From a virus: a stretch of 21,874 bases of DNA. The first letter of the stretch is position 1, and every line of letters begins with the position of its first letter. Below the pieces are notes generated by a model. It was not told the DNA's origin, searched no databases, and saw nothing but the letters and a program-made list of their open reading frames with translations. Below are positions 1 to 21,874 of this stretch, one piece after another. Both the position numbers and the translations under genes were made by a program. The stretch covers positions 1 to 21,874 of IMG/VR virus record IMGVR_UViG_3300025141_011333; one strand, given 5' to 3'.

Positions 1-38
1 AACAGCGATGATTGATTAAAATAAAAAGGGAGAAAAAA

Positions 39-5800: not shown

Positions 5801-8800
5801 AGTAATATTTCTTGGTAATCTATTCCTTTCGATATCTGATATGAGATTTAGTTTTTTTAATGCATCTTTTTTGCCAATAAAATCTTTAAGCTCTCCAGAT
5901 AAAACTTCATCAAATTTATTTACAAATTTATTTAATTCATTTATTTTTTCAGAATACTTAATAGAATTTTGGTCTTTAGGTATTGTTAGTCTGAAATTTT
6001 TAGGATTATCTATTCCTGCTCTTTTAGCAATAAACTCTATAAATTCATTTCTATTGACATTGTATTTCTTTTCAACATCCCTTACCTGTTTATTTAAAAA
6101 ATTCTTATAGGCTGAAGGACTTTCAAAACTCGCATCACTTATTTTTTTGTATTTAGTTACGCCACCTTTGAATTGCACACCTCTAGTATCTAGTTTTTGT
6201 GTTAATCTTTTAGATACGATATTTGCATAATCATTAAAATTACCTATGCCTAAGATAGTTTTAACTCTTGACACAACTTGTTTTAAAGCTTGATTAAATC
6301 TAGAGAATAGACTTGGAGGGAATGTTAAGGCTTGTGCCTTATCTCCAGTTACATCTGCTGTAAACTCTTCCATATCTCTATTTTTATTTTGCTTTTTACT
6401 TTTCCATTCTTTATACTCAGAAGTTTTACTGGCTAATTGCTCTAATATACTTAAATCCTTAGACAATTTTACATCATTGGTTTCCCTTGCATATGCTTTA
6501 AGCTTATGAAACTTCTCATGAAAGTAATCAGTTGGTTGAAATCTGTCTTTTGCAAGTAATATTGCTCCCTCTGCAGCATCTATAAACTGACCTAAAACAC
6601 CTTTCCCTAATTTTGCTTGCTGTAATTGTTCTGGAGACAGTTTATCTTTTGCTGCCCACCTTTCAACAAACCTTTCTCTTGCTGGGTCAAATCCCTGTTT
6701 GAATGGCCCTTTACTCACATCCCCTTTTTTAAATTTAACATCAATGGGAGAACCCATTTTTTTATGTAATTCTTTCTGAGCTATAATTAAATCAGAAGCT
6801 TCTTTAATATTATAAACTCTATCAATTCTTGTTCTTTCATGCCCAAACAAATAATTTTCAGTTGCCGATTCCTTCCCTCCTAATTTTGCACCAATAGATT
6901 TTCCTCTTCTTCTTAAATCATAAAAGGCAGAGTTTGGGTTATCAGACATTTTTTTCTTATTAATTAACTGACCAACTTTAGCTGCCTTACCCATTAAACT
7001 TTTTCCACTGCCTACGTATTGCATAATATCTTCTGCCAATTTTTTATCTATCCAAACTTTTCGATTAAAAGTATTATATTTGACGAAATTAGCGTCCATA
7101 TCAAGAAAATATTCTTTTGTCTTATCCTCAAATTTTAAATATTTTTCTAAATCTTTTGGGTTGTCTTTTAAAATTTCTGCTAATTTATTAATTTCTAAAT
7201 TTCTTATGTAATAACGTGCTCCCAGTTTACCTACTATCTCTACTCCTTTATCTCCACTAGCTATAGCTTCTTCAATAGTAAATTTCCTTATTCCTTTTTT
7301 TGCTGGGTTTTTACCTGCTCCACTTGCATTCCATTCATTATATTCATTCATAACAGTTCTTGCATATTCCATTAATCTATTTGAATCTGGGCCTCTTAAA
7401 AATTCATTTATTCCTAAATGTTTAAAAAATAAATTCAATTCATTTGACGGTTTATTACTCGTTGTATTCCCGTCTTTTCTTCCTAGTATATTATCATTGA
7501 AAAATTTATTTAAATCAGATATTTTAACTTCTGTAAGGTCTTTTCCTTTATATTCATTCAAAAACCTTGATACTTCAATTATTCCATTTTTAGGGTTTTT
7601 AATGACCCCAGTAGCAAAATCAGTCTTAGACCTACCTATATCGCCTGATAGCCTTGCTTTTGCGTAGTCAATAAAAGCAGAAGAGTCGAAATCGCCTCTT
7701 TCAATAGCAGCTCTAGAAAGTTCGCCAGTTTTATCTTTAGCATTAATCATTTCAACCAGTTTTACTTCTTCTAGTCGCATATCTTTTGTTTCGTTTTTTA
7801 GCTGTTTCTTCCAATCATAAGGTTTTTTATCACCTCTTTTTATAACCGTAAGTTTATCTCTTTCTGAAATTTTATCATTTAAATTTTTCCTAGACATAGG
7901 AATTTTAGCTGATATAGCCTGAACTTCAAACTCCTTTTCCTTTCTTTCAAGTTCTGATTGAACTAAAAACTCCATTTGTTCATCTAATGTTTTTGGAGTC
8001 TTTGTTTCTTTGGTAATTGTTTTTTTAGTCTTTGTAGGCTCAGAAGGAACTATATCATATTCATAACCAGTTGTCTCAAATTCTGGAGCACCTTCCACTT
8101 CAACTTCTTCAATATCTTTTTCTTTTACTTCTCTTTTAAGTGGGTCTCTTTGTTTTAATAATTCTTGTTTATATGTTTTCTTTAATCCTTCTCCAAGTGC
8201 TAAGGCTTCATTATATGAATCTCTTCTAGCCCCTGTAACTAATTCATTGCCTTTTGGAGTTGTTAATACAGGTTCATATCCAATTATTTCCCCATCTTTA
8301 TTTTTAACTTCTTTTACAGATACATCAAAGCTATCAGCATATTTAGTCCTCATCTTTTTAGCTATTCCAGGTTCATTTAAAGCACCTAGATTAACCATAT
8401 CATGAACATCTTCTAATGATTTTATTTTCTTGTTAAGCTCTGCGTCAATATCCTTAATTTTAGCTTCTGTAGACATTTCTTCTTTAGTAAAAAACTTCTC
8501 TTTATTTTTAGACATTTCTCTAGTGATTCCATACAAAGTATTATTAATGAATCCAAATTCTTTCAATAACTCTGCTCTAGCTGCATGTCTTTCTTTTCTA
8601 CTTGATAATTTTGGTATATCATCCATTTTATCAAGATTCTGCGTATATTTTTTTAATGCCTTATTGTATGCAGGAATACCTATATAAGCATCTCTTGCTT
8701 CTGATATAATATTAATCTTTTCTTGGACAAGCTCTGAAGGTATAGGGACACCAGCTTCAATTAAATCTGATTCTATTCTTTCAATCTTTTCATATCTGGA

Positions 8801-9985
8801 CTGCATTTCACCTTTTTCACCAACACCTAATAAATCATGAACTTTTCCTTTAGGGTCTGATTTTGTCTTAAATCCAGCCTTCTCGAATATATCACCATAA
8901 AAAGCGTGTTTTGCTTTCCTATACCTCTCAACATCTCCTTCTCCCATCCTTAATGGCTTCATTGAAGCTCTTAAACCACCAACAATAGCAGTGTTCATAA
9001 AAATACTTGAAAGCCAATCATCCATATCGACTTCTTCTCCCATTAAAGCCCGTTCTGCTATTTGACCAGTACCAAATAATGTACCTTCAGCAATTACTTG
9101 CCCTACTGGATTCATTGTTAATTGTGTCACTTTATTGGCAAATGTTTTGTCTGTAGCCATTCTAGCTTTTGCAAATTTTGGAGCCATTAATCCTTTTGTG
9201 AAATAGCCAGCTGCAGCCCCTAATGCTAAACTGCTTGCTCCATGCTTTGTTGCATTCCAAGTCATTTGTTTATAATCCATCTCATCTCTTAATCCATCTT
9301 TTATTTCAATGGATTGCTGTGCTGCATCTTGTAAAGCTCCTCCAGCAGCTCCATATGTCGCAAGACTAAATCCTGATTCAATACCTGCTCCTCTTGCTAA
9401 ATAATTATGAAATCCTCCAGCCATTGCTTTTCTTGTACTTCTATTTGCACCTGCTTTTGCTAACATTTGGCTAAATCCTTTTGTTGCCATATTCTTCAAA
9501 GGGCCATGCGTTATTGACTTTGCAGCTACACTCCCTACCCCACTACTACCAAAAAATGTTAACATATCTACAGGTGATACTAACCCAACGAAAAACTGAC
9601 CCGCTTCATCATACCATGCCCTATCAACATCTTCTTCTTTATATTTAGCTTCTCCATGCATAATTTGATATATAGTTCCAGCGATTGATTTATTATAGGC
9701 TTCTCCCCACCAATTACCATCCTCAGCCCACGCTTCAGATAAATTAGCCGTAAGTATCTTTTCAAAAAAACCAGGATTAGCTTTTTCGTCAAGTTCTTGT
9801 TGTGTAGGGATTTGTGATTGTTTGGGGTCTGATGTAGTAAATGGATTCTCCCCATAGCTAATATCATTTCCATCTTTATCTTTTTTATACACTCTTTGTA
9901 TATGTTGATAAACATCGTAGTCTGTCTGACCAAGAGTATTAAATCTCTCTTTATACCATTTGACTGCTTTTTCTGGGTTAATCAT
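2846..9985 (-). CDS. Giant polyvalent/ejection-type virion protein, 2379 aa
   Basis: Last gene of the leftward structural operon, directly after three probable internal virion proteins; position and size suggest a protein packaged in the head and ejected with the DNA, comparable in role to T7 gp16. Regions: an N-terminal segment with hydrophobic stretches (about 130-156 and 250-265, Gly/Ala rich); helical charged region (350-620); Pro/Thr/Lys/Glu linker (about 625-690); tyrosine-recombinase-like module (about 770-1065); zincin motif HEKFH (1156-1160) with EEFTAD at 1206-1211; a long helical region (1260-2080); a hydrophobic segment (about 2088-2112); and a charged C-terminus. Fusion of a metallopeptidase to long helical regions is typical of phage large polyvalent proteins. 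It starts at a TAATG overlap with the preceding gene and has no good ribosome site, so translation is probably coupled. The frame is uninterrupted, so this is an intact gene rather than a chance fusion. Confidence 0.85.
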   Translation of the reverse strand: MINPEKAVKWYKERFNTLGQTDYDVYQHIQRVYKKDKDGNDISYGENPFTTSDPKQSQIPTQQELDEKANPGFFEKILTANLSEAWAEDGNWWGEAYNKSIAGTIYQIMHGEAKYKEEDVDRAWYDEAGQFFVGLVSPVDMLTFFGSSGVGSVAAKSITHGPLKNMATKGFSQMLAKAGANRSTRKAMAGGFHNYLARGAGIESGFSLATYGAAGGALQDAAQQSIEIKDGLRDEMDYKQMTWNATKHGASSLALGAAAGYFTKGLMAPKFAKARMATDKTFANKVTQLTMNPVGQVIAEGTLFGTGQIAERALMGEEVDMDDWLSSIFMNTAIVGGLRASMKPLRMGEGDVERYRKAKHAFYGDIFEKAGFKTKSDPKGKVHDLLGVGEKGEMQSRYEKIERIESDLIEAGVPIPSELVQEKINIISEARDAYIGIPAYNKALKKYTQNLDKMDDIPKLSSRKERHAARAELLKEFGFINNTLYGITREMSKNKEKFFTKEEMSTEAKIKDIDAELNKKIKSLEDVHDMVNLGALNEPGIAKKMRTKYADSFDVSVKEVKNKDGEIIGYEPVLTTPKGNELVTGARRDSYNEALALGEGLKKTYKQELLKQRDPLKREVKEKDIEEVEVEGAPEFETTGYEYDIVPSEPTKTKKTITKETKTPKTLDEQMEFLVQSELERKEKEFEVQAISAKIPMSRKNLNDKISERDKLTVIKRGDKKPYDWKKQLKNETKDMRLEEVKLVEMINAKDKTGELSRAAIERGDFDSSAFIDYAKARLSGDIGRSKTDFATGVIKNPKNGIIEVSRFLNEYKGKDLTEVKISDLNKFFNDNILGRKDGNTTSNKPSNELNLFFKHLGINEFLRGPDSNRLMEYARTVMNEYNEWNASGAGKNPAKKGIRKFTIEEAIASGDKGVEIVGKLGARYYIRNLEINKLAEILKDNPKDLEKYLKFEDKTKEYFLDMDANFVKYNTFNRKVWIDKKLAEDIMQYVGSGKSLMGKAAKVGQLINKKKMSDNPNSAFYDLRRRGKSIGAKLGGKESATENYLFGHERTRIDRVYNIKEASDLIIAQKELHKKMGSPIDVKFKKGDVSKGPFKQGFDPARERFVERWAAKDKLSPEQLQQAKLGKGVLGQFIDAAEGAILLAKDRFQPTDYFHEKFHKLKAYARETNDVKLSKDLSILEQLASKTSEYKEWKSKKQNKNRDMEEFTADVTGDKAQALTFPPSLFSRFNQALKQVVSRVKTILGIGNFNDYANIVSKRLTQKLDTRGVQFKGGVTKYKKISDASFESPSAYKNFLNKQVRDVEKKYNVNRNEFIEFIAKRAGIDNPKNFRLTIPKDQNSIKYSEKINELNKFVNKFDEVLSGELKDFIGKKDALKKLNLISDIERNRLPRNITLADQVKTLKALDVKDGKLFNATVKELKEYNDFVINQDIVQRDGVGWMSLNDVNNLRRAEVDSGMQSGLKEGAMILGSTHAAVKKIGMSDIAEKLLTHNSIQATNESPLLKFNEGASKIIGGNFLTRETKLSKIKNNMVVALDNNGEMLLALQKAKKEYGNKLPKGEGKIIKNAQSFFDKVINPEWSKTIKTGRDGRTRGDGLAAKNKDGSYKYINLNTKEGQIAKLYIDTIQKGFGKDKFESSLRQNTNQAEFESMSSKSGIKFIEDGIYITRSLTQEGKRLLYVNERARANAVNKLATDIAYKRAKDKYGKDFTKEQLSKEMEDSRLIAEMQFDDMINFNPSKISIKYLKDRLSLQDLYIENEKGKLVRTYENSFDKTVTPYVQGMAKFYATLEMFPEAIQGMKPGNGIHKVFQGAEGILKGGKQKELNWVKEVINKQLGAEKSADPYELSYRTLESTARIVAKLGLSFPTAGFKNLITGTTQTVFAHRLRDVGEGFALVLAKDAEVYNRAMNSNAFTVGNVLYEGRHAIDKVLDATAFKAGFMRPTEKFNRLLAIASSIAEQRRLLERIALHPKESNLHQKAVRRLKSFYFLNDKEIALRIKYGNAKEVRADNTLSNYEKIQLMRDVENINNKMNTYAHINTQGSSADLFMPKWAGKEGLRPLTLFKRMAFAATENTIRNTKEAVQNKNFMKPIMGLTATYLSGSAMIGLYRHLLGTEMPKENTDWWTRFRTTMWKGEFLGIMSEAISPFDTGFTQTLEPAIFNTIGSIGMELGQLYEGKSNFNQFGDGVFRNTTSLYANIQKIRERTNNPLNRDRIRISKLYRDFMDEKGQSMPKDMEGNELSPYYEDFKNSFYLGDEEDFAKQFYSTFFAVAHDRYRTGDPMNIAFKKAFSIMKSKLKTLNPNKGSLFKSGKEGKRNSMKFIKWLQQHRDADKITMTLFEAEAQYKARLNDYTSKLKHYAKKFNVQNYYNDFNWDIKEGF
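6236..6628 (-). other. Zincin metallopeptidase domain inside the giant protein
   Basis: Residues about 1120-1250. HEKFH at 1156-1160 fits the HExxH zinc motif, preceded by a helix (FIDAAEGAILLAKD). The downstream EEFTAD (Glu1206/Glu1207, Asp1211) supplies a likely third ligand, as in the metallopeptidase domains of phage and conjugative-element polyvalent proteins. The tail of the domain reads FPPSLFSRFNQALKQVV then ILGIGNFNDYANIVSKRL, a helix-plus-loop ending I associate with that family. A role in maturing virion proteins or cleaving a host target after ejection is inference. Confidence 0.65.
6791..7678 (-). other. Tyrosine-recombinase-like module inside the giant protein
   Basis: Residues about 770-1065. 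The first part (770-880) resembles the SAM-like core-binding domain of integrases, with EVSRFLNEYKGKDLTEVK then SDLNKFF and later ELNLFFKHL. The second part carries the catalytic landmarks in order: box I YIRNLEINKL (Arg928, Glu931, matching R-x-x-E-x-x-x-L), a basic hairpin KYNTFNRKVWID (Lys969 or Lys976), box II YDLRR (Tyr1022, Arg1025), LFGH (His1049) and RVY (Tyr1058). The spacing Arg to Arg is 97, Arg to His 24 and His to Tyr 9, against about 99, 23 and 9 in XerD as I remember it. The usual box II histidine is tyrosine. Domain boundaries are estimates. Confidence 0.65.
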
Positions 9986-11640
9986 TATTTATATAAATTT
10001 TGATAATGCTTACTAGGAAATGTAGAAGGCATTTTTATCCAATATTTCCCATATTTAAGAGTCCTTGTTAATTTAAAATATTCTTCTTCATTTTGAGAAA
10101 TAAATTCATCAATAGTCAAGTTTGAATTTTCAAATTTGATTTTAAATTCATTAATTTTTTTTCTACTCTGTTTTCCAATAATACCGTCTTTTTGTTTTTT
10201 ATCTCCCCAAGCTCCTTCTGTTAATGCTTGAGATTGATTAAACTCCCCTAATAAATATTTTTTCATAGCAACTGACGCTTTATCTGCTCCATCTAATATT
10301 TCTTTTTTTTCTCTAATTCTATTTTCAACATCTTCTATTTTTGAGTCTATAAAACCTTGCCTCTGAGGAAGTTCTGTTGATTTATCTTTTTTTAATTCAT
10401 CTAAACTAACCCCATCAATTTCTCCTGAATCATAAAAACTTACTGGTTTTTTCAATTCTCCCGAAAGATATTTTTTTATAACATTTAGGTCTGTTGTTCC
10501 ATATCTTTCCATTAAATCTTCATTTGATTTTTTAAGCTCCTCTTTTTCCTGTTCAGCAAAAATAGTTTCTTCCTCTTTAGCTTGTTGCTCTTCAATAGTA
10601 ATAATACCATCGCCATCTAAATCAGCTGTTTCAATCAAACTCTGACTATCTGGAAGCTCATCCGCATACCAACTGCCAGACCAATTTTTATAACCTTGCC
10701 TAGCTTTATCATCCCTCGTTTGTACAAGTCTTAGTTCTTTATCAAGTATCTCTTTTGCTCCAATAGTATCTCCTGCAGCAGCTTTATCATTTATTCCCTT
10801 AAAATCAACATCTGGCATAAGGGCTTGCCACTCAGCTAAATCATCATCAGCAAGTTCTCCCCATTTAGCTTTTAAAAGATAATTCTTTAGACTTGTAGTA
10901 GTACCTATTACTGACTTAAATTCAGCCATTTTTTTAGTTCTTATTTGAGTTAGAGCAGCTGGCGTTAGCATTCCATTAGAAATTGCTGCTGCCTCTTCTT
11001 CTGTTATTGAATCATCTCCCATCATTGCAGTTAACGCTTTATCGAGATTAGTCTTATATCTTGTCAATTTATCAGCTATATCATCTTCATCGAAAGTTCC
11101 ATCTCCAATACCCGATGGCATTCTAAATAACTTTTCCTTAGTCTGAGGGTGAAGTCCTAAACTTAGCTTTTCTTCTAATTTAGATATTCTTACATACTCA
11201 TTATTAAGCATATCCAAATTTGATTCATATTTAGGCTGTCCTTCATCATTAACTAAAGATGCTCTTGTTGCATCTAAATCCATCCAATCCGAAGCTTTTG
11301 GTTTATATTCGTCACTTTTTAGAAATTCATCAGCTTGAGTTAATGCAGTGGAATATTCATTAAACTTGTAGTTTTTATTTTCCATTACATTTTCTAGTGC
11401 AGCATGATTTAAAGAAGTTGAGTCATATTTAGAACTTCTATCCTTTATATTGTTTAAAGCCTGTTGAGCATTAGCGATTTGTGCTGGAGTTTGTGCAGTT
11501 ACTAAAAGATTTTTAATTGCTTCCTGTTGCCCTGATATACTCTCCTTTGCTCTTTCATGCCCAGATGAAAACGCTTCAAGCAATTGTAATATCTCTGCTG
11601 TTGAACCTCTATTTATTTGTTGAGATTTATAATCCGCCAT
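9985..11640 (-). CDS. Probable internal virion protein with EF-hand loop
   Basis: A 551-residue, mostly helical, acidic protein of unknown family. The N-terminal 120 residues are Gln/Ala/Asn-rich helices; charged helices and coiled-coil-like stretches (about 352-390 and 420-450) follow. Residues 340-351 are DLDGDGIITIEE, a perfect canonical EF-hand calcium loop (Asp at 1, 3 and 5, Gly at 6, Ile at 8, Glu at 12), flanked by helix-forming sequence. Its place between small ejection-type proteins and the giant protein suggests a head-internal or DNA-ejection component; this is positional inference. The start ATG follows AAAGGATTCAA. Its stop overlaps the start of the giant gene by one base (TAATG). 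Confidence 0.75.
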   Translation of the reverse strand: MADYKSQQINRGSTAEILQLLEAFSSGHERAKESISGQQEAIKNLLVTAQTPAQIANAQQALNNIKDRSSKYDSTSLNHAALENVMENKNYKFNEYSTALTQADEFLKSDEYKPKASDWMDLDATRASLVNDEGQPKYESNLDMLNNEYVRISKLEEKLSLGLHPQTKEKLFRMPSGIGDGTFDEDDIADKLTRYKTNLDKALTAMMGDDSITEEEAAAISNGMLTPAALTQIRTKKMAEFKSVIGTTTSLKNYLLKAKWGELADDDLAEWQALMPDVDFKGINDKAAAGDTIGAKEILDKELRLVQTRDDKARQGYKNWSGSWYADELPDSQSLIETADLDGDGIITIEEQQAKEEETIFAEQEKEELKKSNEDLMERYGTTDLNVIKKYLSGELKKPVSFYDSGEIDGVSLDELKKDKSTELPQRQGFIDSKIEDVENRIREKKEILDGADKASVAMKKYLLGEFNQSQALTEGAWGDKKQKDGIIGKQSRKKINEFKIKFENSNLTIDEFISQNEEEYFKLTRTLKYGKYWIKMPSTFPSKHYQNLYK

Positions 11641-11662
11641 TTGAATCCTTTTATTTTAAATT

Positions 11663-12133
11663 TTATCCGTATCTAATTCCAGAAGCTTGCTGTTGCCACT
11701 GATTAATCATATCTTGTACTGATTTCAATGATTGAGCCCTTTGTTGCCCTGTTTGTGACAATACATCAGTCATTCCCTTACCATATACATCCTTAATTTC
11801 ACCCGTATATTGTTGTTGTTGTCCACTACCTGCAAAACCACCAGCAGCTTGTATTCCTTTTTCTCCGCCTCCAGCTGCTAGCATTTTACTTAATAATGTT
11901 TGTCCTGTTGCTTCAACTTGAGGAGAATATGTCCCTGCAAGTCCTCCTTTAAGTAAGTCTGAAGATAGAGGTTGAAACATACTTGATGGTAATTGATAGG
12001 AACTTAATCCATATTGGCTTTGTAATGCCTGTGAAATATCACCAGCCCCAAGTTGCCCAAGACCACTAAAACCACCAGAAACGTCAAGTCCCATACTTTG
12101 TAATTGTTGCATTATATCATCAATCATTGCCAT
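11663..12133 (-). CDS. Small Gly/Gln-rich internal virion-type protein
   Basis: A 156-residue protein, low in charge and rich in Gly, Gln, Ser and Leu, opening with the amphipathic helix MAMIDDIMQQLQSMG and closing with a Gln-rich helix (about 118-150). There is no signal peptide and no recognised domain. Composition and position in a cluster of three before the giant gene resemble ejection or internal core proteins of podoviruses (compare P22 gp7/gp20 or T7 gp14 by role only). AAGGAG lies 9 bases before the start, within the last codons of the 315-residue gene. I do not recognise the family. Confidence 0.65.
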   Translation of the reverse strand: MAMIDDIMQQLQSMGLDVSGGFSGLGQLGAGDISQALQSQYGLSSYQLPSSMFQPLSSDLLKGGLAGTYSPQVEATGQTLLSKMLAAGGGEKGIQAAGGFAGSGQQQQYTGEIKDVYGKGMTDVLSQTGQQRAQSLKSVQDMINQWQQQASGIRYG

Positions 12134-12134
12134 A

Positions 12135-13082
12135 TTATCTATCTCCTTCCATTTGAGTCAATAATAATAGTAAATTCATAAGAATATTTGAGCCTTGTTT
12201 GCCTTTTCCTAATAATGTTGCAGGGTCTTGTGCAAATGCTCCCTCTTCACCAAACAATGATTGTGTAAAAGTTTGTTTTCCTTCTAGCCCTTGTAATTGT
12301 TTAAATAACTCATCTGATGATATCCCTAATTCATCTGAAAGGCCAGAAAACGAATCCCCTGATTTAGTTGGGTCTAAATCATAAAAAGTTTCTCCTCCTC
12401 CGCCTCCAACTGATTTTCCATAGCTTTCTGTTAATTTTTGAGTATCAATACCAGCCTTTTGAGCTCCTTTTAATAATTTTGCTTCTTTCCCTACAACAAC
12501 ATCTCCTGCTTTAGCTCCTTCGAATGTTTTTCCGATACCTTCTCCCATTTTACCCATTGCATAACCTTTTATTCCTTCAGTCAATCCTGTTTTAAATAAA
12601 TCACCGCCAGACACTTTTGTTGCTTCAAGCATATCGTCAAGCATACTTTCATTTCCAGCAGCTATTCTTCCTGACTCTTTACCTAAAAATGTTCCTCCCC
12701 ATTTACCTGCATCAAGGCCAGCACCCTTTGCTGCCTCTATTTGTTGTTGTGCAAATTTTGATTGCTGTTTTGCTTTATACATTCCCGATAAACCTGCTAG
12801 AGTTGCACCTGCTATAGTACCAACACCAGGAATTAATCCCAACATAGGAGCAATTGTTTCTAAAAACCCTCCGAAACCTTTAGTTTCTCTTTTCTGGTTT
12901 AATAGTTCTTTTTGTTTTCTTTGAGAAGCTATTTGTTCTTTCTGAAATTCTTCAGACATCTCCCCTTTCTGTTGACCAAAAGCAAGAGCTCCAGTTTTTT
13001 GAGCCTGTTCTGACCCTAATAAACTCTCTAATAATCCTTGTTGTGTACTTGCGATACCATAAGGGTTGTATCCATTCGCCAT
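12135..13082 (-). CDS. Glycine-rich hydrophobic internal virion-type protein
   Basis: A 315-residue protein. Residues about 27-70 form a Gln/Lys/Glu-rich helix. Residues about 72-103 are a glycine-rich hydrophobic segment (ETIAPMLGLIPGVGTIAGAT) able to insert into a membrane. A run of five glycines lies near 225, and a Leu-rich segment (NILMNLLLLL) ends the protein. This pattern, a soluble coiled region plus a glycine-zipper membrane segment, is common in phage proteins that leave the head and form a DNA channel across the cell envelope. AAGGAGTAAGAT precedes the ATG. It follows a 106-base gap after the fibre gene and is the first of a four-gene ejection-type block. No family name can be given. 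Confidence 0.7.
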   Translation of the reverse strand: MANGYNPYGIASTQQGLLESLLGSEQAQKTGALAFGQQKGEMSEEFQKEQIASQRKQKELLNQKRETKGFGGFLETIAPMLGLIPGVGTIAGATLAGLSGMYKAKQQSKFAQQQIEAAKGAGLDAGKWGGTFLGKESGRIAAGNESMLDDMLEATKVSGGDLFKTGLTEGIKGYAMGKMGEGIGKTFEGAKAGDVVVGKEAKLLKGAQKAGIDTQKLTESYGKSVGGGGGETFYDLDPTKSGDSFSGLSDELGISSDELFKQLQGLEGKQTFTQSLFGEEGAFAQDPATLLGKGKQGSNILMNLLLLLTQMEGDR

Positions 13083-13173
13083 ATCTTACTCCTTTTTTAA
13101 TCCAATCCGTCTATTAAATATATTAATTATTCTCATCATTTACAAATCTACATTTTATGTTATAATTGTTGCA

Positions 13174-13239
13174 GGTAATGCTGTTGCTTTAATCATATTC
13201 TGCAAAATCTGATACTGCTGTTGGTAATGCTGTTGCTTT
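13174..13239 (-). repeat. Direct repeat of the fibre 3' end across its stop codon
   Basis: The 17-base sequence ggtaatgctgttgcttt occurs at 13174-13190 and again at 13223-13239. The second copy lies inside the fibre gene and encodes KATALP near its C-terminus; the first lies just past the fibre stop. In the transcript direction the downstream copy can be read as MIKATALPATIIT followed by a stop, a frame-shifted echo of the fibre C-terminus. The rest of the gap to 13083 is AT-rich with no clear terminator and holds only the ribosome site of the next gene. Confidence 0.8.
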
Positions 13240-14937
13240 CATTATAAAATCACAATGTTCTCCTGAACCTCCACCCCAATTTAGATAACCATTGCCTATT
13301 CCTGAAGATTGTTTTTTAAAACCAACCCAATAGTTATATGTATCACCTGCTGTTAATCCTGTAACTGCCCAATAATGTTGTATTGTCGCATTGTCTGTTT
13401 CATCAATTAAGTTAATTGCTTGTTCATAAGTAGCACCTGCTGTACTATATCCACTTGTTGCATTTGCAGTAGATAATCCTATAAAGGTGGTATTATTCGC
13501 TTGAGCATCTACTTTAATTTGAATCATAATCTCAACTGCACCACTTGGAGGAGCAATAAATCTAATTCCCATATCATCATCAGGAACAACAAAAGAGGTT
13601 GTTAAAGTATAAGTAGTTCTACTTGCATCTTCTCCAATCATTCTATATCCAATTATCATTCCTGCATAAGCACTATTTGCTACACTAAATTCAGTAACAG
13701 TATCTCCACTTACAGTCCCTGCTACCCAATTAGTTGCTCCCATTGTAATCTTGTCATTAGCTTCATCAAGAATTAACATTTTATCTGCACCAACAACAAT
13801 ATCTAATACATCATCAGAAGATTCGTCTAAGTAGGTATGAGTTCCTCCATCAAAATATAATTTCTTTGTTGCATCAATAGTAAAATTCCCACTTGGTATC
13901 TCAACATCTACATCTCCATCTACTGTTGCACTTCCTGTTAATCTTACTCCTGTAGATAATCCTCCATTATATTCTGCTACTCTAAGTTCTAGTCTTCCTG
14001 ATTCACTTCCTGCTGTTACATCATCTGCTTTTGCTTTAATTGACGCATATAAAGTTTGGTTACCACCACTATCCTCACCATGAAACATAATTCTACCTAT
14101 TGTATCACTATCAGCAGGAGAAGCACTATTTCTATATATTGATATATCAGGACTATGATTACTTCCATCATCAGTTGATTCTATTATTAATTGAGAAGTT
14201 GAAGCATTAGTTGTTACTAAATGTAAACAATCTGCACTTGTATCCCACAGCATATAATTTGAAGCTGTATCACCAAAAAACTTTACATCATATCCAGCAT
14301 CATCTACACCAACAGTTAAATTACTAACGATTGTTACAGTATCACTTACAGGGTCTAAGATTAAATCTCCATCAGGAATTAATGACATATGTGCTACTGC
14401 ACCACTATCATCAGTTGTCCTTAAATTCGTAACTCCATGTTCTGCCACTTCAAGTGAAAACAAATCATTAGGGTCATCTGTATCTTTTAAAGTAAGTGTG
14501 CTATTTGATGTGTTTATTTGGAATAAAGATACATCTACCCCAAGAATACCATAATTAAAAATACCACTAGAAGTCCCTATAAAATAAAAGTCATCACCTG
14601 ATGTTAGAAGGTAAGTATCTCCTCCTGAAATATATAAATCTAATGTTCCTGTAGAATCTGTTGATTCAAATCGTGTATATACATTTGGTCTAAATGTTAA
14701 ATACATACTATCACACTCTACTAAATGTGATGTTAATTTACCATTAAGAAATAAATCTCCATTTATTCTAAGCTCATCCTTATTTAAAGAAAGGGGGGTA
14801 TTCTCCCCCCCAATCTTTATAACTTTCTGATGAGTATCTAAAACATCGTCATCCCCTAATAGAATTGGATTCTTTCTGTTTGGCTCAAAAGAACCATCAG
14901 TAATAGAGTGAAGTTGGGGTAGACGAGCTCTAGGCAT
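13189..14937 (-). CDS. Tail fibre / appendage protein
   Basis: A 582-residue protein rich in Asp, Thr, Ser and Gly with many short beta-strand repeats (for example SNLTVGVDDAGYDVKFFGD, GNFTIDATKKLYFDGG, VLDIVVGADKMLILDEANDK), the style of trimeric beta-structured phage fibres that bind host receptors. The N-terminal 60 residues (MPRARLPQLHSITDGSFEPN) are distinct and probably attach to the virion. From about 430 on, the sequence changes to a globular-looking Thr/Ala-rich tip. There is no catalytic motif for a depolymerase and no intramolecular chaperone signature that I recognise. Translation probably depends on the upstream 49-residue gene through a TAATG overlap, as no ribosome site precedes the ATG. 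The 3' end is duplicated downstream. Confidence 0.8.
   Translation of the reverse strand: MPRARLPQLHSITDGSFEPNRKNPILLGDDDVLDTHQKVIKIGGENTPLSLNKDELRINGDLFLNGKLTSHLVECDSMYLTFRPNVYTRFESTDSTGTLDLYISGGDTYLLTSGDDFYFIGTSSGIFNYGILGVDVSLFQINTSNSTLTLKDTDDPNDLFSLEVAEHGVTNLRTTDDSGAVAHMSLIPDGDLILDPVSDTVTIVSNLTVGVDDAGYDVKFFGDTASNYMLWDTSADCLHLVTTNASTSQLIIESTDDGSNHSPDISIYRNSASPADSDTIGRIMFHGEDSGGNQTLYASIKAKADDVTAGSESGRLELRVAEYNGGLSTGVRLTGSATVDGDVDVEIPSGNFTIDATKKLYFDGGTHTYLDESSDDVLDIVVGADKMLILDEANDKITMGATNWVAGTVSGDTVTEFSVANSAYAGMIIGYRMIGEDASRTTYTLTTSFVVPDDDMGIRFIAPPSGAVEIMIQIKVDAQANNTTFIGLSTANATSGYSTAGATYEQAINLIDETDNATIQHYWAVTGLTAGDTYNYWVGFKKQSSGIGNGYLNWGGGSGEHCDFIMKATALPTAVSDFAEYD
14793..14811 (-). other. G6/C7 hairpin within the fibre gene
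   Basis: Six G (14793-14798) and seven C (14805-14811) flank a 6-base loop, giving a strong six G:C-pair hairpin in an AT-rich gene. It encodes fibre residues about 43-49 (IGGENTP). In the mRNA the seven-G run is also a potential slippage site. No function is shown. Confidence 0.6.
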
Positions 14938-15086
14938 TATTTTTTAGGTTTGAATCTATCTAATAAAGGCTTTAAAATCATATCCAGTACAACATCATCT
15001 GCTTTACTTGGGCTCATTTTAATACATTTTTCTAATATCATAAAACCTAATAAAACCCATTCCCAATTACTTGTTATCCATTCCAT
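14937..15086 (-). CDS. Small membrane-associated protein, holin-cluster member
   Basis: A 49-residue frame with ATG at 15086 preceded by AAGGAGAAGTAA. It opens MEWITSNWEWVLLGFMILEK, a Trp-rich hydrophobic helix, followed by a short soluble tail (KMSPSKADDVVLDMILKPLL) ending in basic residues. One base separates it from the stop of the preceding coiled-coil gene, and its own stop overlaps the fibre start (TAATG). Its strong ribosome site and fit between two genes make it very likely real. The form suits a small holin or an envelope-associated accessory protein; the exact role is unknown. Confidence 0.75.
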   Translation of the reverse strand: MEWITSNWEWVLLGFMILEKCIKMSPSKADDVVLDMILKPLLDRFKPKK

Positions 15087-15087
15087 T

Positions 15088-15369
15088 TTACTTCTCCTTA
15101 TTTTCTAATTTTTTTAATCGTTTATTTATATTCGTCTTATCTCTTTTTGTAAATAGAGGAGGATGAGAATCCTTTTTCAGAATAGCAACATCCTTCTCTA
15201 ATTCTTCTATATACTTCGCATTCCTATGTACTGTCTTTTGCAAAGATTTCATCTGTCTGTCTAATTCGTTAGGCTTATTAACATACTTATCAATCCTTTT
15301 TAAATCAATTTTATGTTTAACAGCCTTAATAATCCTTGTAGCCACTATCTTTGCCAACCATATAGGCAT
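15088..15369 (-). CDS. Small basic coiled-coil protein
   Basis: A 93-residue, very lysine-rich protein. Residues 1-20 (MPIWLAKIVATRIIKAVKHK) form an amphipathic basic helix that could lie on a membrane. Residues 35-67 look like a coiled coil (LDRQMKSLQKTVHRNAKYIEELEKDVAILKK, split here by a break in charge pattern), and the C-terminus is another charged helix. It lies in the run of short membrane or coiled-coil genes between the metallophosphoesterase and the fibre, with one base between it and the preceding gene. Function is unknown; a lysis accessory or a fibre/tail assembly helper are both possible. Confidence 0.65.
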   Translation of the reverse strand: MPIWLAKIVATRIIKAVKHKIDLKRIDKYVNKPNELDRQMKSLQKTVHRNAKYIEELEKDVAILKKDSHPPLFTKRDKTNINKRLKKLENKEK

Positions 15370-15370
15370 A

Positions 15371-15613
15371 TTATTTACTTACTCCTAGCCATGTTAATAT
15401 AATTCCTATAACAATAGTCAAGGTGCTTCCTATAGTTTTAACTGCTGTTATACTGTTTTCTGCTTGCCTCAATCTCCCATTAATTTTTTCTAAATGTTTA
15501 TTGTTTGAATCTACCCTTTCTTTAATATGACCTAAATCACTACAGATTCTAACTAAATGAACTGTTATACTATTTCTATATTCTTCAGTTTTATCAGTAT
15601 CTTTTATTTTCAT
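15371..15613 (-). CDS. Holin-like protein (coiled coil plus C-terminal membrane helix)
   Basis: An 80-residue protein. Residues 25-58 form a heptad-like helix (ERVDSNNKHLEKINGRLRQ onward), and residues about 60-77 form one hydrophobic helix (IGSTLTIVIGIILTWLGV). This soluble coiled coil followed by a C-terminal membrane anchor is the layout of XhlA-type haemolysin/holin accessory proteins. The gene overlaps the preceding 102-residue gene by 20 bases. With the cytoplasmic lysozyme upstream in the same transcript, a role in membrane permeabilisation at lysis is reasonable but inferred. Confidence 0.6.
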   Translation of the reverse strand: MKIKDTDKTEEYRNSITVHLVRICSDLGHIKERVDSNNKHLEKINGRLRQAENSITAVKTIGSTLTIVIGIILTWLGVSK

Positions 15614-15902
15614 TCTTCTCTTGCATCCTTAAAAACTTCTCTTTTAATCCATTCCCACTTAACTTCGCTATAACTTCAACAAGTGTTTTATAACTATTTT
15701 CTAAACCCTTTTGTTCAAGTTGCATTAATTTCTGTTGGTCAATAAGTTTAACCAAAATACCTTCTAATCTATTAAATTTCTGATGTATGTCTTTTGACAA
15801 ATCATCTTGTATATATTTATTTTGTTTCCATATAAAAAATCCAAATGCTATTGCCACACATATAGGGATTCCATATCTTTCTAAAATTGATAACCAATCC
15901 AT
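15594..15902 (-). CDS. Holin-like protein (N-terminal membrane helix plus coiled coil)
   Basis: A 102-residue protein with one membrane helix at residues about 10-25 (YGIPICVAIAFGFFIWKQNK) followed by a helical, coiled-coil-like cytoplasmic region (about 30-95) rich in Lys, Gln and Leu. The topology resembles BhlA/UviB-type holin-like proteins. AGGAGTTAAAA precedes the ATG, and the start lies two bases after the stop of the 45-residue membrane gene. It is the mirror topology of the next gene product (membrane helix first rather than last), so the two may work as a pair. No lipobox is present, so it is not a classical o-spanin. Confidence 0.6.
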   Translation of the reverse strand: MDWLSILERYGIPICVAIAFGFFIWKQNKYIQDDLSKDIHQKFNRLEGILVKLIDQQKLMQLEQKGLENSYKTLVEVIAKLSGNGLKEKFLRMQEKNENKRY

Positions 15903-15904
15903 TT

Positions 15905-16042
15905 TTAACTCCTGATAAATATTGTATATACAACAATAGAAATTTTAACAAATATTAAAATAATAAATCCCCAAAACATAATAGCAACCCATATCATGAG
16001 TATTTGCTTCCAATCTTCTAACCATTTATTATTTCTCCCCAT
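15905..16042 (-). CDS. Small single-span membrane protein
   Basis: A 45-residue frame whose ATG at 16042 lies inside the end of the metallophosphoesterase gene (25-base overlap). The sequence starts MGRNNKWLEDWKQ and then contains a long hydrophobic stretch (about 14-42: ILMIWVAIMFWGFIILIF, then VKISIVVYTIF) ending in Arg-Ser, enough for one or two membrane passes. A GGAAAG stretch 7-8 bases upstream could serve as ribosome site. It fills an otherwise unexplained 115-base gap and abuts the next gene. Likely a holin or small membrane effector within the lysis cluster. Confidence 0.65.
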   Translation of the reverse strand: MGRNNKWLEDWKQILMIWVAIMFWGFIILIFVKISIVVYTIFIRS

Positions 16043-16797
16043 AAACAAGTCTTTCCATTTATGATTTGTATTACATGAACTGTGAACAATCCTTTATCAA
16101 AAAAATCTACTATTGCAAAAGCATGACTCCAGTTTATCCTTCTATTACCAAGCCATTCATTAGCTTCAGCACTCATATCCTTTAAACACCCAATACTCCA
16201 AGCAGACTTATGCCCATCCATATGAGTCGCAGACATTTGTTGTAAATCGTGCCAATGCCCATACATTATATTACATCCAAGTTTTCTTAAGTGATTAGCA
16301 GCATGATACTGTCCACCATATTGATGCCCATGATAAAAATATAATTTTCCTAACTTAAGGTGTTTACCAAAAGGATAGTAAGTATATCCTCTGCCATCCA
16401 AATCAACTGCATTAGCAAAACTGTATTGAGGGATGTAAGGGTATTTACCAACTGCAATATTGAGCCAATTATCATGGTTTCCTTCTGTTATATATTTTTC
16501 TTCACAATTAACTTTATCTAGGGACTCATCTATCATATCCATCCCTTTATTGACATCTTTTATATCTTTTTTGAAATCTTTTATAAGAAACTCTAATGGA
16601 GGAGGTTTTTTGTTTTTAAATTTCCAATGTGAAAAAGCCTCCCACTCTCCAACATCCCCTAAATCTACATAAGCATCTGGCTTAACTATCTCTATAGCTT
16701 TACATAATACATTGATTGCTTTTTGGTCGTGTAAGGGGAAATGTTTATCAGGTGTTACGACTACTCTTTTAATGACTCCATAATCGTTTTTCCTCAT
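16018..16797 (-). CDS. Calcineurin-like metallophosphoesterase
   Basis: A 259-residue predicted di-metal phosphoesterase. Family motifs appear in order: D-x-H (Asp17, His19), GD (LGDVGE, Asp48), GNHD (Asn107, His108, Asp109), HGH (His156, His158) and GHWH (His181, His183). All canonical metal ligands are present, so it should be active. The substrate cannot be read from the sequence; phage members include protein phosphatases and nucleases. It stands between lysozyme and the small membrane genes in the late operon, an odd place for a DNA-processing enzyme, so late host modification or envelope action is worth considering. AAGGAAATCT precedes the ATG. Confidence 0.85.
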   Translation of the reverse strand: MRKNDYGVIKRVVVTPDKHFPLHDQKAINVLCKAIEIVKPDAYVDLGDVGEWEAFSHWKFKNKKPPPLEFLIKDFKKDIKDVNKGMDMIDESLDKVNCEEKYITEGNHDNWLNIAVGKYPYIPQYSFANAVDLDGRGYTYYPFGKHLKLGKLYFYHGHQYGGQYHAANHLRKLGCNIMYGHWHDLQQMSATHMDGHKSAWSIGCLKDMSAEANEWLGNRRINWSHAFAIVDFFDKGLFTVHVIQIINGKTCLWGEIING

Positions 16798-16848
16798 AGA
16801 TTTCCTTAAAATTTATTGGAGTAATTTAGTATAAAAACTTGAAATTTC

Positions 16849-17707: not shown

Positions 17708-18607
17708 TTAGCTAGCATTAGTGAATTTATAACCTTTTTTATTGCTTGCGCTATCAACAAGTTTAGCACCATATATCATATCTGCTACTACTTTAGTTCC
17801 AAGAGCATCAATAGAATATTCTGCTTGTACTCTTACATCTTGCTGAACTGCACATACAGCAGCCGATTTATGAAAAACAGCTCCTGATATTGCTGTTCCT
17901 GCTGTAGCAACTGTATTTGACATATAGACATTTATACCAAATAATCTGCCCATAAATCCTTTAGTTCCACCATTATTCAAAATAGAACCATCGCCACCTG
18001 CATCAGCTCTCCAAAAGTTTTTAGAGATACCTGCATTAGGGTCTAAGATGTCAGCCATAAATGTTGGATTGACAACTAAAGAACATTCGCCATCCATATA
18101 AGGCACATCATTCTCACCTAAATTAGCAAGTGCTGCTTGAAATTCAGCAGCCGTTATTGCATCGTCAGCAGTTAAAGTAGCACCTTCATTAACACCATCA
18201 AGTTCTGCCCAAATATCAGCATCTACAGCTCTAGCAAGAGCTTCGCCAAACATCTGAGTATATTTAGATACTAAATCAGAATTTGATTGAATTAAAAGTA
18301 CATCTTCAAAAAGCATTGCATTATATTTATGCTTATCTATTGCTAATTGAGTAACTGTTGTTGCTGTTGCATCATAAGTTACTAATGTATTAGCAGCTTT
18401 ATCTGATGAAGCATCAAAATCAATTTGTGGGATATTAACTGTATCGCCACTTCCTTTTACTAAAGAAGAATAATCTTCAATTAAATTCTTGAAGACTGTT
18501 CCTCTTTCAAAATATCTGTAGATACCATCACTCCACAACTCTGGTACAAAATCATCAGCAGTTGAGGTTGTGTGAGCAGCACCTAACATTCCACCTGTTA
18601 TTGCCAT
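17708..18607 (-). CDS. Major capsid protein
   Basis: A 299-residue protein, probably of HK97 fold and nearest in style to P22-like or N4-gp56-like coat proteins. Features: N-arm MAITGGMLGAAHTTSTADDF, then VPELWSDGIYRYFERGTVFKN (helix), a GSGDTVNIPQID strand, the long spine-helix-like stretch ALARAVDADIWAELDG, and a C-terminal A-domain region with FGINVYMSNTV and VVADMIYGAKLVD. Composition is Ala/Asp/Gly/Thr rich with few Arg, usual for coat proteins. AGGAG precedes the ATG. It follows the scaffold gene and precedes a strong hairpin, the standard setting of the most highly expressed late gene. No prohead protease is seen in the window, in line with scaffold-based, uncleaved coat assembly. Confidence 0.88.
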   Translation of the reverse strand: MAITGGMLGAAHTTSTADDFVPELWSDGIYRYFERGTVFKNLIEDYSSLVKGSGDTVNIPQIDFDASSDKAANTLVTYDATATTVTQLAIDKHKYNAMLFEDVLLIQSNSDLVSKYTQMFGEALARAVDADIWAELDGVNEGATLTADDAITAAEFQAALANLGENDVPYMDGECSLVVNPTFMADILDPNAGISKNFWRADAGGDGSILNNGGTKGFMGRLFGINVYMSNTVATAGTAISGAVFHKSAAVCAVQQDVRVQAEYSIDALGTKVVADMIYGAKLVDSASNKKGYKFTNAS

Positions 18608-18638
18608 TTTAAAACTCCTCTCCCTTTAATAAGGGGGT

Positions 18639-19166
18639 TTATTTTTTCACAGCCGAAGCTATGATGTCATCCCACTTTTCCCTTCTCTCTTTTGCATCCA
18701 TCTTAGTCCAATCAACATTGGTAGGAGTATAATCCTTTCTAGGATTTCCTGCAACTTCAGGGGCATTGGGTTTGACATTATTAATTTTATTAGTAATATA
18801 TTCAAGAGTATCTAAGTCTAACCCAGATAATCTTTCTCTATCTTCTTCAGGGTGGTTCTCTAAAAGAGATGCTCGTCTTGTTTCCTCATACTTACCCCAC
18901 TTTTCAGCATTAGAAGTTAAACCTTCGACCTTAGAAGATACCTGTTCATATAAGGCTTTAAAATCTTCTTTTTCTTTAAGTTTACTTTCTTCTGCTTTAG
19001 CAAGATTTTTTTCTAATTTCGCTAAACGAGTTTCAGCATCCTGAGCTCTTTTTCTGTACTTTTTGCTTTCTGCAATATACTGCTCATTAGAGCTATCTTG
19101 AGTAGTTTCTGTAGCAGGACTTTCACTTACTGTTTCTGTTACTGCTGTTGTTTTATCTTCGGACAT
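18639..19166 (-). CDS. Capsid scaffolding protein
   Basis: A 175-residue acidic protein just upstream of the major capsid gene. The N-terminus is Thr/Ser/Glu rich and disordered (SEDKTTAVTETVSESPATET). The middle (about 30-90) is a long charged coiled-coil helix (KKYRKRAQDAETRLAKLEKN onward), and the C-terminus is a basic helix (DAKERREKWDDIIASAVKK) of the kind scaffolds use to bind coat. The start is ATG 19166 because AAGGAGGACAGT precedes it; an upstream in-frame start at 19217 would fall inside a palindromic regulatory site and has no ribosome site. First gene of the leftward structural operon. Confidence 0.82.
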   Translation of the reverse strand: MSEDKTTAVTETVSESPATETTQDSSNEQYIAESKKYRKRAQDAETRLAKLEKNLAKAEESKLKEKEDFKALYEQVSSKVEGLTSNAEKWGKYEETRRASLLENHPEEDRERLSGLDLDTLEYITNKINNVKPNAPEVAGNPRKDYTPTNVDWTKMDAKERREKWDDIIASAVKK

Positions 19167-19198
19167 ACTGTCCTCCTTTTTATTATTAAAATAAGTGT

Positions 19199-19220
19199 AT
19201 TGTGCAAATTTTTGCATAAT
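19199..19220. promoter_or_regulatory. Palindromic operator-like site, scaffold-proximal
   Basis: A 22-bp inverted repeat with half-site ATTATGCAAA (left arm attgtgcaaa, one mismatch; right arm the exact complement) around a TT centre. It is one of two near-identical copies in the 97-bp gap between the divergent scaffold and terL genes. It would lie in the transcribed leader of the scaffold message if the candidate promoter at 19251-19278 is used. A repressor or activator dimer site is the natural reading; the binding protein is unknown. Confidence 0.65.
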
Positions 19221-19250
19221 ACTAATAGATAACTTAAATTATCTTTAGAA

Positions 19251-19272
19251 ATTATGCAAATTTTTGAATAAT
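19251..19272. promoter_or_regulatory. Palindromic operator-like site, terL-proximal
   Basis: Second copy of the 22-bp palindrome: left arm ATTATGCAAA exact, TT centre, right arm tttgaataat with one mismatch. Its centre lies 52 bp from that of the first copy, about five helical turns, so two bound dimers would sit on the same face of the DNA and could loop or cooperate. It covers the TTG at 19264 that could start terL, which slightly favours use of the downstream ATG at 19309. Confidence 0.65.
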
Positions 19273-19278
19273 TCACAA
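19251..19278 (-). promoter_or_regulatory. Candidate leftward promoter for the structural operon
   Basis: On the minus strand TTGTGA (complement of 19273-19278) is followed after 16 bases by CATAAT (complement of 19251-19256), resembling -35 and -10 boxes of a sigma70-type promoter. The -10 box is one arm of the terL-proximal palindrome, so binding there would block the promoter. Transcription would start near 19244, leaving a leader of about 78 bases before the scaffold ATG. A matching rightward CATAAT exists at 19215-19220 but with no convincing -35 box. Confidence 0.35.
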
Positions 19279-20577
19279 TCAGATTATAAGAAAAGGTGGT
19301 TTGAGTATATGGGGTATAAACCTCATTATGGGCAAACCAAATTGCATTATCCAGAAAAAGATACTGCGAGGTTTTTTGTCATGGTATGTGGTAGAAGATT
19401 TGGAAAGACTACAGCATCAGCTATGGAGGCAACTTATTATGCTTCTCAGCCTAACCAAAAGATTTGGCTTGTAGGATTATCCTATGATAAAGCAGATTTA
19501 ATGTTTCGTGAGGTATGGAAATTGATGGTAGTAGGGCATGCTAATGATATAGTAAGAGCTTCTGAGAAAGAAAGAATTATAAAATTTAAATGGGGCACTA
19601 CAGTAGAGGCTAAATCTGCAGACAATCCTGACTCACTTGTTGGTGAGGGATTAGACTTACTTGTTATAGATGAGGCAGCTAAAGTAAAAAGGAGAATATG
19701 GGATATGTATCTTTCTCCGACTCTTTCCGATAGAAAGGGGAAGGCAATATTTATCACGACTCCAGAAGGATTCAACTATGTTTATGATTTATTTCTCTTA
19801 GGCAAAGAAGATGAATTATGGGAATCTCATCAAGCCCCTTCATGGGACAACCATTTTGCCTTCCCTGACGGAAAAAAAGACCAATTTATCCTCGAAAGAA
19901 AGAGGAATATGGCAAAAGAGGTGTTTGAGCAAGAATATGGAGCTAAGTTTACCTCATTCTCAGGTCGTGTTTACCCATTCGATAGGGAACTTGATGTAGG
20001 AGAGTTTCCTTATAATCCGAATTTTCCTACTTTTTGCTCCATAGATTTTGGGTATCGTATGCCTGCTGTTGGGTGGTTTCAAATTCACAGAGTTGGTGGA
20101 TTATGGCATATAAATATGATAGATGAGATATTACATAAAAGTAATATTAAAACAGACGAGTTAGCCTTAAAAATTAAGGCAAAACCTTATAATGTCCTTA
20201 AATATTATGGCGACCCTGCAGGGATGCAAGCTCAAGGGCAGTCAGGTATGGGAGATATAGAAATATTCAGAAGAAAGGGTATAATTATTAATACAAAGAG
20301 GGATAAGGTGTCAAGAAGTATCTCATCAGGTGTTTCTCATCTCAGAGGCTTCATAGAAAATGCCGAAAACCAAAGATTTTTACATATTCACAAAAAATGC
20401 ACAGGAATGATGGAAGATTTAGAGAATTATCGTTATCCTGAAGCAAAAGAAGGACAAGATTTAAAACCAGAACCACTAAAGGATGGTTATCATGACCATG
20501 GAGCAGATATGATAAGATATTTCTTTATAAACCAATTTCCAATTAAAAACAGACAATTTAAAGTGAGGACAAGATGA
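19264..20577 (+). CDS. terL: Terminase large subunit
   Basis: Packaging motor ATPase and nuclease, 437 residues from TTG 19264. ATPase: Walker A CGRRFGKTT (42-50, Lys48), Walker B LLVIDEAA (Asp136, Glu137), coupling motif ITTPEG (about 164-169). RNase H-like nuclease: SIDFG (Asp261), YGDPAG (Asp317) and HDHGADMIRY (Asp411, Asp415). All key residues are present. The start is uncertain. TTG 19264 lies inside a palindromic site with no ribosome site, but its extra residues include RWFEYMGYKPHYGQ, which resembles the conserved opening of related terminases as I remember them. ATG 19309 follows AAGGTGG by 9 bases and gives 422 residues. No small subunit is visible. It overlaps the portal gene by four bases (ATGA) and runs opposite to the capsid genes. 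Confidence 0.93.
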   Translation: MNNSQSDYKKRWFEYMGYKPHYGQTKLHYPEKDTARFFVMVCGRRFGKTTASAMEATYYASQPNQKIWLVGLSYDKADLMFREVWKLMVVGHANDIVRASEKERIIKFKWGTTVEAKSADNPDSLVGEGLDLLVIDEAAKVKRRIWDMYLSPTLSDRKGKAIFITTPEGFNYVYDLFLLGKEDELWESHQAPSWDNHFAFPDGKKDQFILERKRNMAKEVFEQEYGAKFTSFSGRVYPFDRELDVGEFPYNPNFPTFCSIDFGYRMPAVGWFQIHRVGGLWHINMIDEILHKSNIKTDELALKIKAKPYNVLKYYGDPAGMQAQGQSGMGDIEIFRRKGIIINTKRDKVSRSISSGVSHLRGFIENAENQRFLHIHKKCTGMMEDLENYRYPEAKEGQDLKPEPLKDGYHDHGADMIRYFFINQFPIKNRQFKVRTR

Positions 20578-21874
20578 CGAATAAAACAGTAGAAGAAATT
20601 ATAGCAGATTCAGTTAAAGAAACTAAACTGAATAAACAAAGAGCAAGGCGAGATTGGGTAAGAAAGATGCTTGATTATTATGGAGGCAATGCAACAACCC
20701 AATATATTAAAGATTATTTCAATTCTTCAGCATTTCAAGAAATCCCTTGTTATAATGCCAACTTTACACGAAGATTTGTCAATAAAATGAGTAGAATATA
20801 TACTGTTGGGGCAAATAGGAATATAAATAAGCAATATGACCTATTAACTATTAAAAAAGATGCTAGAATGAAGCATGTTGAGAGAATGACACGACTTATG
20901 GGCACAGTTGCGACTCAAATTGTCTATAAAGAATTTAATGGTATGCCTTATTTTGATTATAGACCTGTTTATTATTTCGATGTTCACCTAGAAGACCCTT
21001 TTACACCTTCAGCTATAATGTATCCCTTATTAATGCAACCTGAAGACATTAATTATAATAAAAATCTTGAATGGGCATATTGGGATAACTCGATTTATGT
21101 TCATTATGATGGAAATGGTAATGTAATTGACGAATATGAGCATGGATATGGTGTTTTACCATTTTTATTCACTCACAGAGAAGAACAGGTTGATGAATTT
21201 TTTGTAGACGGAGCAAATGACATTGTAGATTGTAATGAGCAGGTAAATATAGCAATGACAGAGATGCAACTTGGATTAAGATTCCAAATGTTCGGACAAC
21301 CTTATATGACAGGGGTTGATAGTGATAAAAGGATAGAAAGAGCAGGGTCTGACCAAATATTAGACTTGCCAGAAGGGGCAACTTACAATATTGCTTCTCC
21401 TGCAGGCGATATTAATGCTGTAATTGAGAATATTAAGTTCCAATTAGACCTCGTAGCACAAAATAACCACTTATATGTGCAATTTGCACAAGATGGAGGC
21501 GAAACTCCTAGTGGAATAGCTTTAAAAATCAAAGATTTAGAGAGATTTGAAGATTATCAGGATGATATTGAACTTTGGAGGATGTATGAGCATGAATTAT
21601 ATAATATTGAGAGAGAAATCGCTGCTTATAACAATATAAATCTACCAGAGAAGCTAAAGTTAGACTTTAATGAGCCTGAATATCCAAAAACAATTCAAGA
21701 CCAAGTAACTTTAGATGAACACAGACTAAAACATCACATGATTGACGAAGTAGACTTATTAATGGAGTATAATAAGGATTTATCTCGCAAAGAAGCTGAA
21801 AAAATCGTTGAAAAGAACAAAGAATCTCGTGATGAACAAATAAATGGTATGTTTGGTAACCAAAATGAAGAAGA
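20574..21874 (+). CDS. Portal protein, SPP1 gp6-like (partial, runs off the window)
   Basis: An open frame from ATG 20574 to the window end without a stop, at least 433 codons. It forms the dodecameric head vertex through which DNA is packaged and ejected. Landmarks: YNANFTRRFVNKMSRIYT (about 63-80), the mixed strand region around FDYRPVYYFDVHLED, the helical core with AMTEMQLGLRFQMFGQP, and the conserved GETPSGIALKIKDLE (about 309-323), which corresponds to the SG-x-A-L-K signature of SPP1-type portals, followed by long stem/crown helices. ATGA overlap with terL indicates coupling. Near the window edge the sequence turns highly charged (KEAEKIVEKNKESRDEQ), probably the C-terminal end, so only a short part is missing. 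Confidence 0.88.
   Translation, partial: MTNKTVEEIIADSVKETKLNKQRARRDWVRKMLDYYGGNATTQYIKDYFNSSAFQEIPCYNANFTRRFVNKMSRIYTVGANRNINKQYDLLTIKKDARMKHVERMTRLMGTVATQIVYKEFNGMPYFDYRPVYYFDVHLEDPFTPSAIMYPLLMQPEDINYNKNLEWAYWDNSIYVHYDGNGNVIDEYEHGYGVLPFLFTHREEQVDEFFVDGANDIVDCNEQVNIAMTEMQLGLRFQMFGQPYMTGVDSDKRIERAGSDQILDLPEGATYNIASPAGDINAVIENIKFQLDLVAQNNHLYVQFAQDGGETPSGIALKIKDLERFEDYQDDIELWRMYEHELYNIEREIAAYNNINLPEKLKLDFNEPEYPKTIQDQVTLDEHRLKHHMIDEVDLLMEYNKDLSRKEAEKIVEKNKESRDEQINGMFGNQNEE

Follow-up and report, generated by a model that had tools for sequence, protein, structure and literature searches.

Four head genes diverge from a single 97-bp gap in a viral sequence of 21,874 nucleotides (IMG/VR record IMGVR_UViG_3300025141_011333, positions 1 to 21,874; hereafter, the window), with terL and portal running rightward and scaffold and capsid running leftward, as first noticed in the first-pass annotation and confirmed here from gene coordinates. 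We regard it as probable that this is the usual head-gene series with its terL-portal-neck block inverted in place, and that the gap from which the motor and shell genes diverge acts as one two-way promoter/operator.

The window holds three parts of a tailed-phage (HK97-type) head module: terL, portal and the major capsid protein. The capsid gene (MCP; 17708-18607, minus strand) matched phrog_267 (E 1.6e-40) and PF25209 (E 1e-11), and the large terminase gene terL (19264-20577, plus strand) matched phrog_2 (E 5.9e-49) and, above cut-off, PF03237. The gene at 20574-21872 (plus strand; open at the contig end) had no match in PHROG, Pfam or NCBIfam, nor in the PDB by sequence profile, and the assignment of its product as a portal is supported by predicted fold rather than by sequence family: an AlphaFold model (mean pLDDT 81, built from 51 aligned relatives) was matched by Foldseek to solved portals in the PDB (80alpha, NF5, SPP1 and others; best E 8.5e-13). 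The scaffold-like gene (18639-19166, minus strand) immediately precedes the capsid gene in relatives of both the split and the collinear kind, and its name reflects only this position and the charged, coiled-coil-like sequence of the product, which had no PHROG or Pfam match, only two NCBIfam matches far below cut-off, and an E of 0.089 when compared with the scaffold annotated in phage HTVC111P. Taken at its longest, the scaffold ORF would start at 19217 and leave a 46-bp gap to terL; the MSEDK start (19166), which has a strong ribosome-binding site (AAGGAGG), and the terL start at 19264 give a gap of exactly 97 bp. The window ends before terS, which was assigned only in relatives (by phrog_24579 and phrog_2538).

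The terL start is apparently a TTG, which near relatives conserve inside a nearly invariant GCAAATTTTTG; no ribosome-binding site is apparent, and the terL leader would be only about 17 bases long if transcription starts near 19247, as proposed below. In the contigs of two loci (L149 and L150), the terL frame is open for 636 codons, compared with about 440 elsewhere, and may include an N-terminal extension that runs into the scaffold gene.

Gene order was compared among relatives seeded by the window capsid, the window terL and the terL genes of two collinear loci (L077 and L021), where the capsid-seeded and window terL-seeded sets were the best 80 of 113 and the best 80 of 282 relatives, respectively. 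Once duplicates and G-handle copies had been dropped, along with two named phages and loci without the genes, a non-redundant set of 143 loci with terL plus scaffold or capsid remained. The same split was found in 105 of these (window included) and a collinear order in 38, proportions that are not natural frequencies because the sample was seeded from the window's own family. An HMM census of 217 sequences, including the window, gave 124 divergent, 52 collinear and 41 with too few genes, and none of the 217 was convergent or mixed in orientation. By seed, the counts were 36 split, 30 collinear and 14 incomplete for the capsid; 78 split and 2 incomplete for the window terL; 7 split, 6 collinear and 23 incomplete for the L077 terL; and 2 split, 16 collinear and 2 incomplete for the L021 terL. 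The earlier suggestion that the split marks a distinct phage lineage was supported: a tblastn search of 50,697 phage records with the portal gave no match at E 1e-5, and the split is common to terL relatives down to 51% identity (L003), or 43% for a fragment in L036. A single search of genome contigs returned one match, an 83% terL in MAG bacterium TMED88, which gives no useful host lineage; this large group of uncultured phages is probably of marine origin.

In tailed phages, the one-strand order terS-terL-portal-neck-scaffold-capsid is usual, though not obligatory. We assessed how the split departs from this order using terS and neck genes that were named via PHROGs in G001 and G029 and then traced by iterated HMMs. 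In split relatives, terS is located past portal and neck and shares its strand with scaffold and capsid. Among the 64 of the 143 loci that bear terS, 51 have terS on one strand, then neck, portal and terL on the other, then scaffold (and capsid) back on the first, so that the HK97-type series of terS, terL, portal, scaffold and capsid in order on one strand is inverted in part; in the window's orientation, the map reads capsid and scaffold leftward, terL, portal and neck rightward, then terS leftward. A further 12 of the 64 are collinear. The sole exception, L003, flips terS too, with terS, neck, portal and terL together on the strand opposite scaffold and capsid. The portal is on the terL strand in 134 of 134 loci, and the neck gene in 92 of 92; the terL-portal-neck block thus moves as a unit. 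Since a single in-place inversion of this block converts one order into the other, the split is the usual order with the block inverted, which sharpens the earlier, more general proposal of a past inversion to a defined segment between terS and scaffold. Layout was mapped in five split genomes and one collinear genome, with strand runs from three. In the mapped split genomes, one arm from the gap carries scaffold, capsid and subsequent structural genes, and the other carries terL, portal and neck and, beyond terS, more genes on the terL strand (including primase/helicase and replication initiation genes in G029); apart from a few small exceptions, the two arms meet at their ends. No terminator was found at the neck/terS junction of G001.

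The gap contains a dyad-symmetric intergenic element (19203-19268) that we propose as the two-way promoter/operator. Its left arm (TTGCAT, 19212-19217) and right arm (ATGCAA, 19254-19259) flank the core TAACTTAAATTA around the dyad centre at 19235/19236, and TGCAAATTTTTGCA (19203-19216) is copied with one mismatch at 19255-19268; TGCAAATTTTTGCA-like sites are not notably frequent across the window (3 versus 0.87 expected, with 8 of 100 shuffles reaching 3). Across the 124 split loci, the scaffold-terL distance between matched ends is 64-158 bp. Facing TTGCA/TGCAA arms were present in 51 of the 63 unique gaps of near relatives (0.75 expected from dinucleotide shuffles), and an alignment of 34 of these 63 gaps revealed three invariant islands (TTGCA, ATAACTTAAATTA and GCAAATT). 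The motif TTGCAT-N16-19-TWANNT stood ahead of terL in 48 of 64 near loci (0.8 expected) and ahead of scaffold in 37 of 66 (1.2 expected), and was absent ahead of portal (0 of 67), capsid (0 of 65), terS (0 of 32) and neck (0 of 48). Because the motif was derived from near gaps, the independent test lies in far gaps and collinear loci only: facing arms occurred in 11 of 25 far gaps (0.2 expected), and a half element occurred in the collinear L021 group ahead of scaffold (6 of 18; 0.1 expected) and not ahead of terL (0 of 13). Upstream regions of scaffold and terL lacked the half element in the collinear L077 group (0 of 5 and 0 of 3, respectively) and in outgroup collinear loci (0 of 13 for each). 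Symmetry of the gap as a whole exceeded that of shuffles (P ≤ 0.05) in only 48% of the 63 near gaps and only 12% of the 25 far gaps.

As a two-way promoter, the element offers a symmetric core common to both directions but no recognizable sigma-70 hexamers: TTGCAT matches TTGACA at only 3 of 6 positions, the -10-like hexamers are weak, and a standard sigma-70 scan of 19000-19500 reported three other sites (2.0 expected) and not the proposed pair. Predicted transcription starts would fall at about 19247 (plus strand) and 19224 (minus strand), 23 bp apart. From these starts, transcription would proceed leftward through scaffold, capsid and subsequent structural genes, and rightward through a three-gene motor unit (terL-portal-neck) that would end against terS, the block having presumably been inverted in place between terS and scaffold. 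A half element ahead of scaffold, and not of terL, in the L021 group is what an old scaffold promoter with an added terL side would predict; such a promoter may have gained its mirror half once terL and scaffold had become back-to-back neighbours. If the dyad is indeed the promoter, one factor may serve both sides, and motor and shell would be made together. The first-pass annotation had proposed that the split would let one regulator change motor and shell dosage separately, a reading that finds no support here. Both units start from one conserved dyad-symmetric gap, and reading the dyad as a shared two-way promoter makes joint control likelier than separate control.

Capsid and scaffold genes differ in how closely they follow terL. 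For 57 terL-seeded loci, 353 pairs shared a terL identity of at least 85%; capsids were less than 30% identical in 223 of these pairs and at least 80% identical in 53, and scaffolds were at least 40% identical in all 353 (mode 60-70%). Capsids of the 57 loci fell into ten types at 60% identity. In the mixed set, where the two seeds introduce a bias, the rank correlation with terL identity was -0.17 for capsid identity and 0.64 for scaffold identity; the terL-seeded set gave 0.19 and 0.68, respectively. A collinear locus (L023) and a split locus (L033) had capsids 90% identical, with terL and scaffold identities of 26% and 27%. Judged by these identities, the capsid gene is exchanged as a cassette that does not include the scaffold; in marine phages, capsid proteins and terminases have already been noted in variable regions by Mizuno et al. 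2013 (PMC3861242). A more ambitious, and only tentative, reading is of a clade-wide architecture in which one symmetric element between motor and shell would set their ratio by bidirectional starts, and in which the split would free the capsid gene for cassette exchange, as this gene would no longer be on the terL/portal transcript and is swapped without scaffold.

It seems unlikely that the inversion was simply fixed as a neutral change, leaving two separate back-to-back promoters through which motor and shell dosage are tuned apart. Such promoters would fit the split itself, the failure of the sigma-70 scan to score the symmetric pair and the frequent lack of symmetry in the gaps of far relatives, but the two halves mirror each other about a single invariant core in near relatives, so that the sites overlap and could not be occupied independently. 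We consider it rather improbable that the dyad serves chiefly in packaging (as a pac/cos site), in replication (as an origin) or as a structured element, with any promoter function secondary. The dyad does adjoin terL, and the window gap as single-stranded DNA folds better than all 200 shuffles (z = -4.8); against this, terS is on the far side of the block, a one-sided form of the element stands ahead of scaffold in collinear genomes of the L021 group, and the conserved islands appear to be fixed in sequence.

The arrangement is also old. The top identities between split and collinear loci were 69% for terL, 56% for portal, 45% for terS and 40% for scaffold, and with no split/collinear pair exceeding that terL value, the rearrangement cannot be recent. 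In quick terL trees (66 representatives of 157), three changes of orientation are required, falling to two if the very long branch L258 is left out; both a single split clade (AU P = 1.2 × 10−4) and a single clade of ingroup collinear rows (P = 1.1 × 10−7) were rejected. The terS tree has two orientation changes and is compatible with one origin, and the scaffold tree has four. As gene exchange between lineages can mimic flips, neither order is taken as ancestral. Both orientations do occur in related phages, as they would if the terL-portal-neck block were a phase-variable invertible element, but this is very improbable: the same 69% ceiling holds, no near-identical genomes were found in both orientations, and the block in the two genomes examined for end repeats (G029 and G002) is flanked by imperfect inverted repeats only.

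The left part of the window (positions 1-16800) has an ancestry different from that of the head genes, to which it is joined in a fibre-phosphoesterase stretch. Its DnaB, RuvC, 150-aa gene and 2379-aa protein have relatives in another contig set (67 loci), and in 33 contigs searched from this DnaB-seeded set, the window terL and capsid found no match, the same terL query having matched 33 of 35 contigs in a separate search. Two contigs of the DnaB set that were scanned for head genes carried a different terminase, with terL, portal and capsid collinear in G049. The fibre-to-phosphoesterase stretch (about 13.2-16.8 kb) is common to both contig groups; the window has no counterpart of the 1004-aa gene located between capsid and phosphoesterase in G049, nor of the tape-measure gene of G001. 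A chimeric contig is probably a better description than a working mosaic, with 17.7-21.9 kb untouched. The 2379-aa protein (2846-9985) had no match in PHROG or in the phage collection; in 44 of the 67 DnaB-seeded loci, a homologue with 21-62% identity occupies the equivalent position and converges with the 150-aa gene. A pattern scan with the 2379-aa and 551-aa proteins found no close relatives. The window being a fragment whose sequence left of about 17 kb looks chimeric or mosaic, the scaffold/terL junction might be suspected as an assembly artefact as well, but the recurrence of the identical arrangement in the 105 non-redundant loci and in G029 (a contig with a 99-bp terminal repeat), together with conservation of the gap sequence itself, excludes this in practice. 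Collinear relatives, which the first-pass annotation had named, together with discordant reads at the junction, as grounds for rejecting the split, do exist, but they belong to other lineages and so mark a rearrangement, not an error of assembly.

Phage classification is built on head and packaging genes, whose order is commonly assumed not to vary. The old and widespread inversion of three head genes shows that a common transcript for motor and shell is not required, and split and collinear relatives provide a natural contrast for studying how phages keep portal, terminase and capsid in balance. Control can be tested directly at the conserved gap, and capsid exchange without scaffold bears on scaffold specificity.

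Literature searches found no paper reporting this split head-gene arrangement, although such a paper may exist. Among known phages, HTVC111P and HTVC010P (Pelagibacter), HMO-2011 (Puniceispirillum) and A-4L (Anabaena) likewise have terL, a portal or head-tail adaptor, any annotated scaffold and the capsid gene as neighbours in this order, but have their head genes on one strand, whereas the window's family has terL-portal-neck turned around. The two-arm genomes of A-4L and HMO-2011, whose replication and structural genes run in opposite directions, also resemble this family in having long opposed arms that converge at their ends; in those phages terL and portal stay in the structural arm, and here the opposite holds, with terS left on the structural strand. 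Two-way promoters of E. coli and Salmonella are defined in PMC10268837 by a start-site spacing of 7-25 bp, a range that includes the 23 bp predicted for the window gap. Bacterial two-way promoters with symmetric -10 elements, as described in PMC10268837 and PMC12825309, resemble the gap in having a dyad-symmetric core between divergent genes; their usual start-site distance is 18 bp, and the gap differs from them in its long conserved symmetric TTGCAT arms and its lack of a consensus -35. The parts are those of an ordinary tailed phage; as far as these searches show, the gene order and the conserved gap are new.
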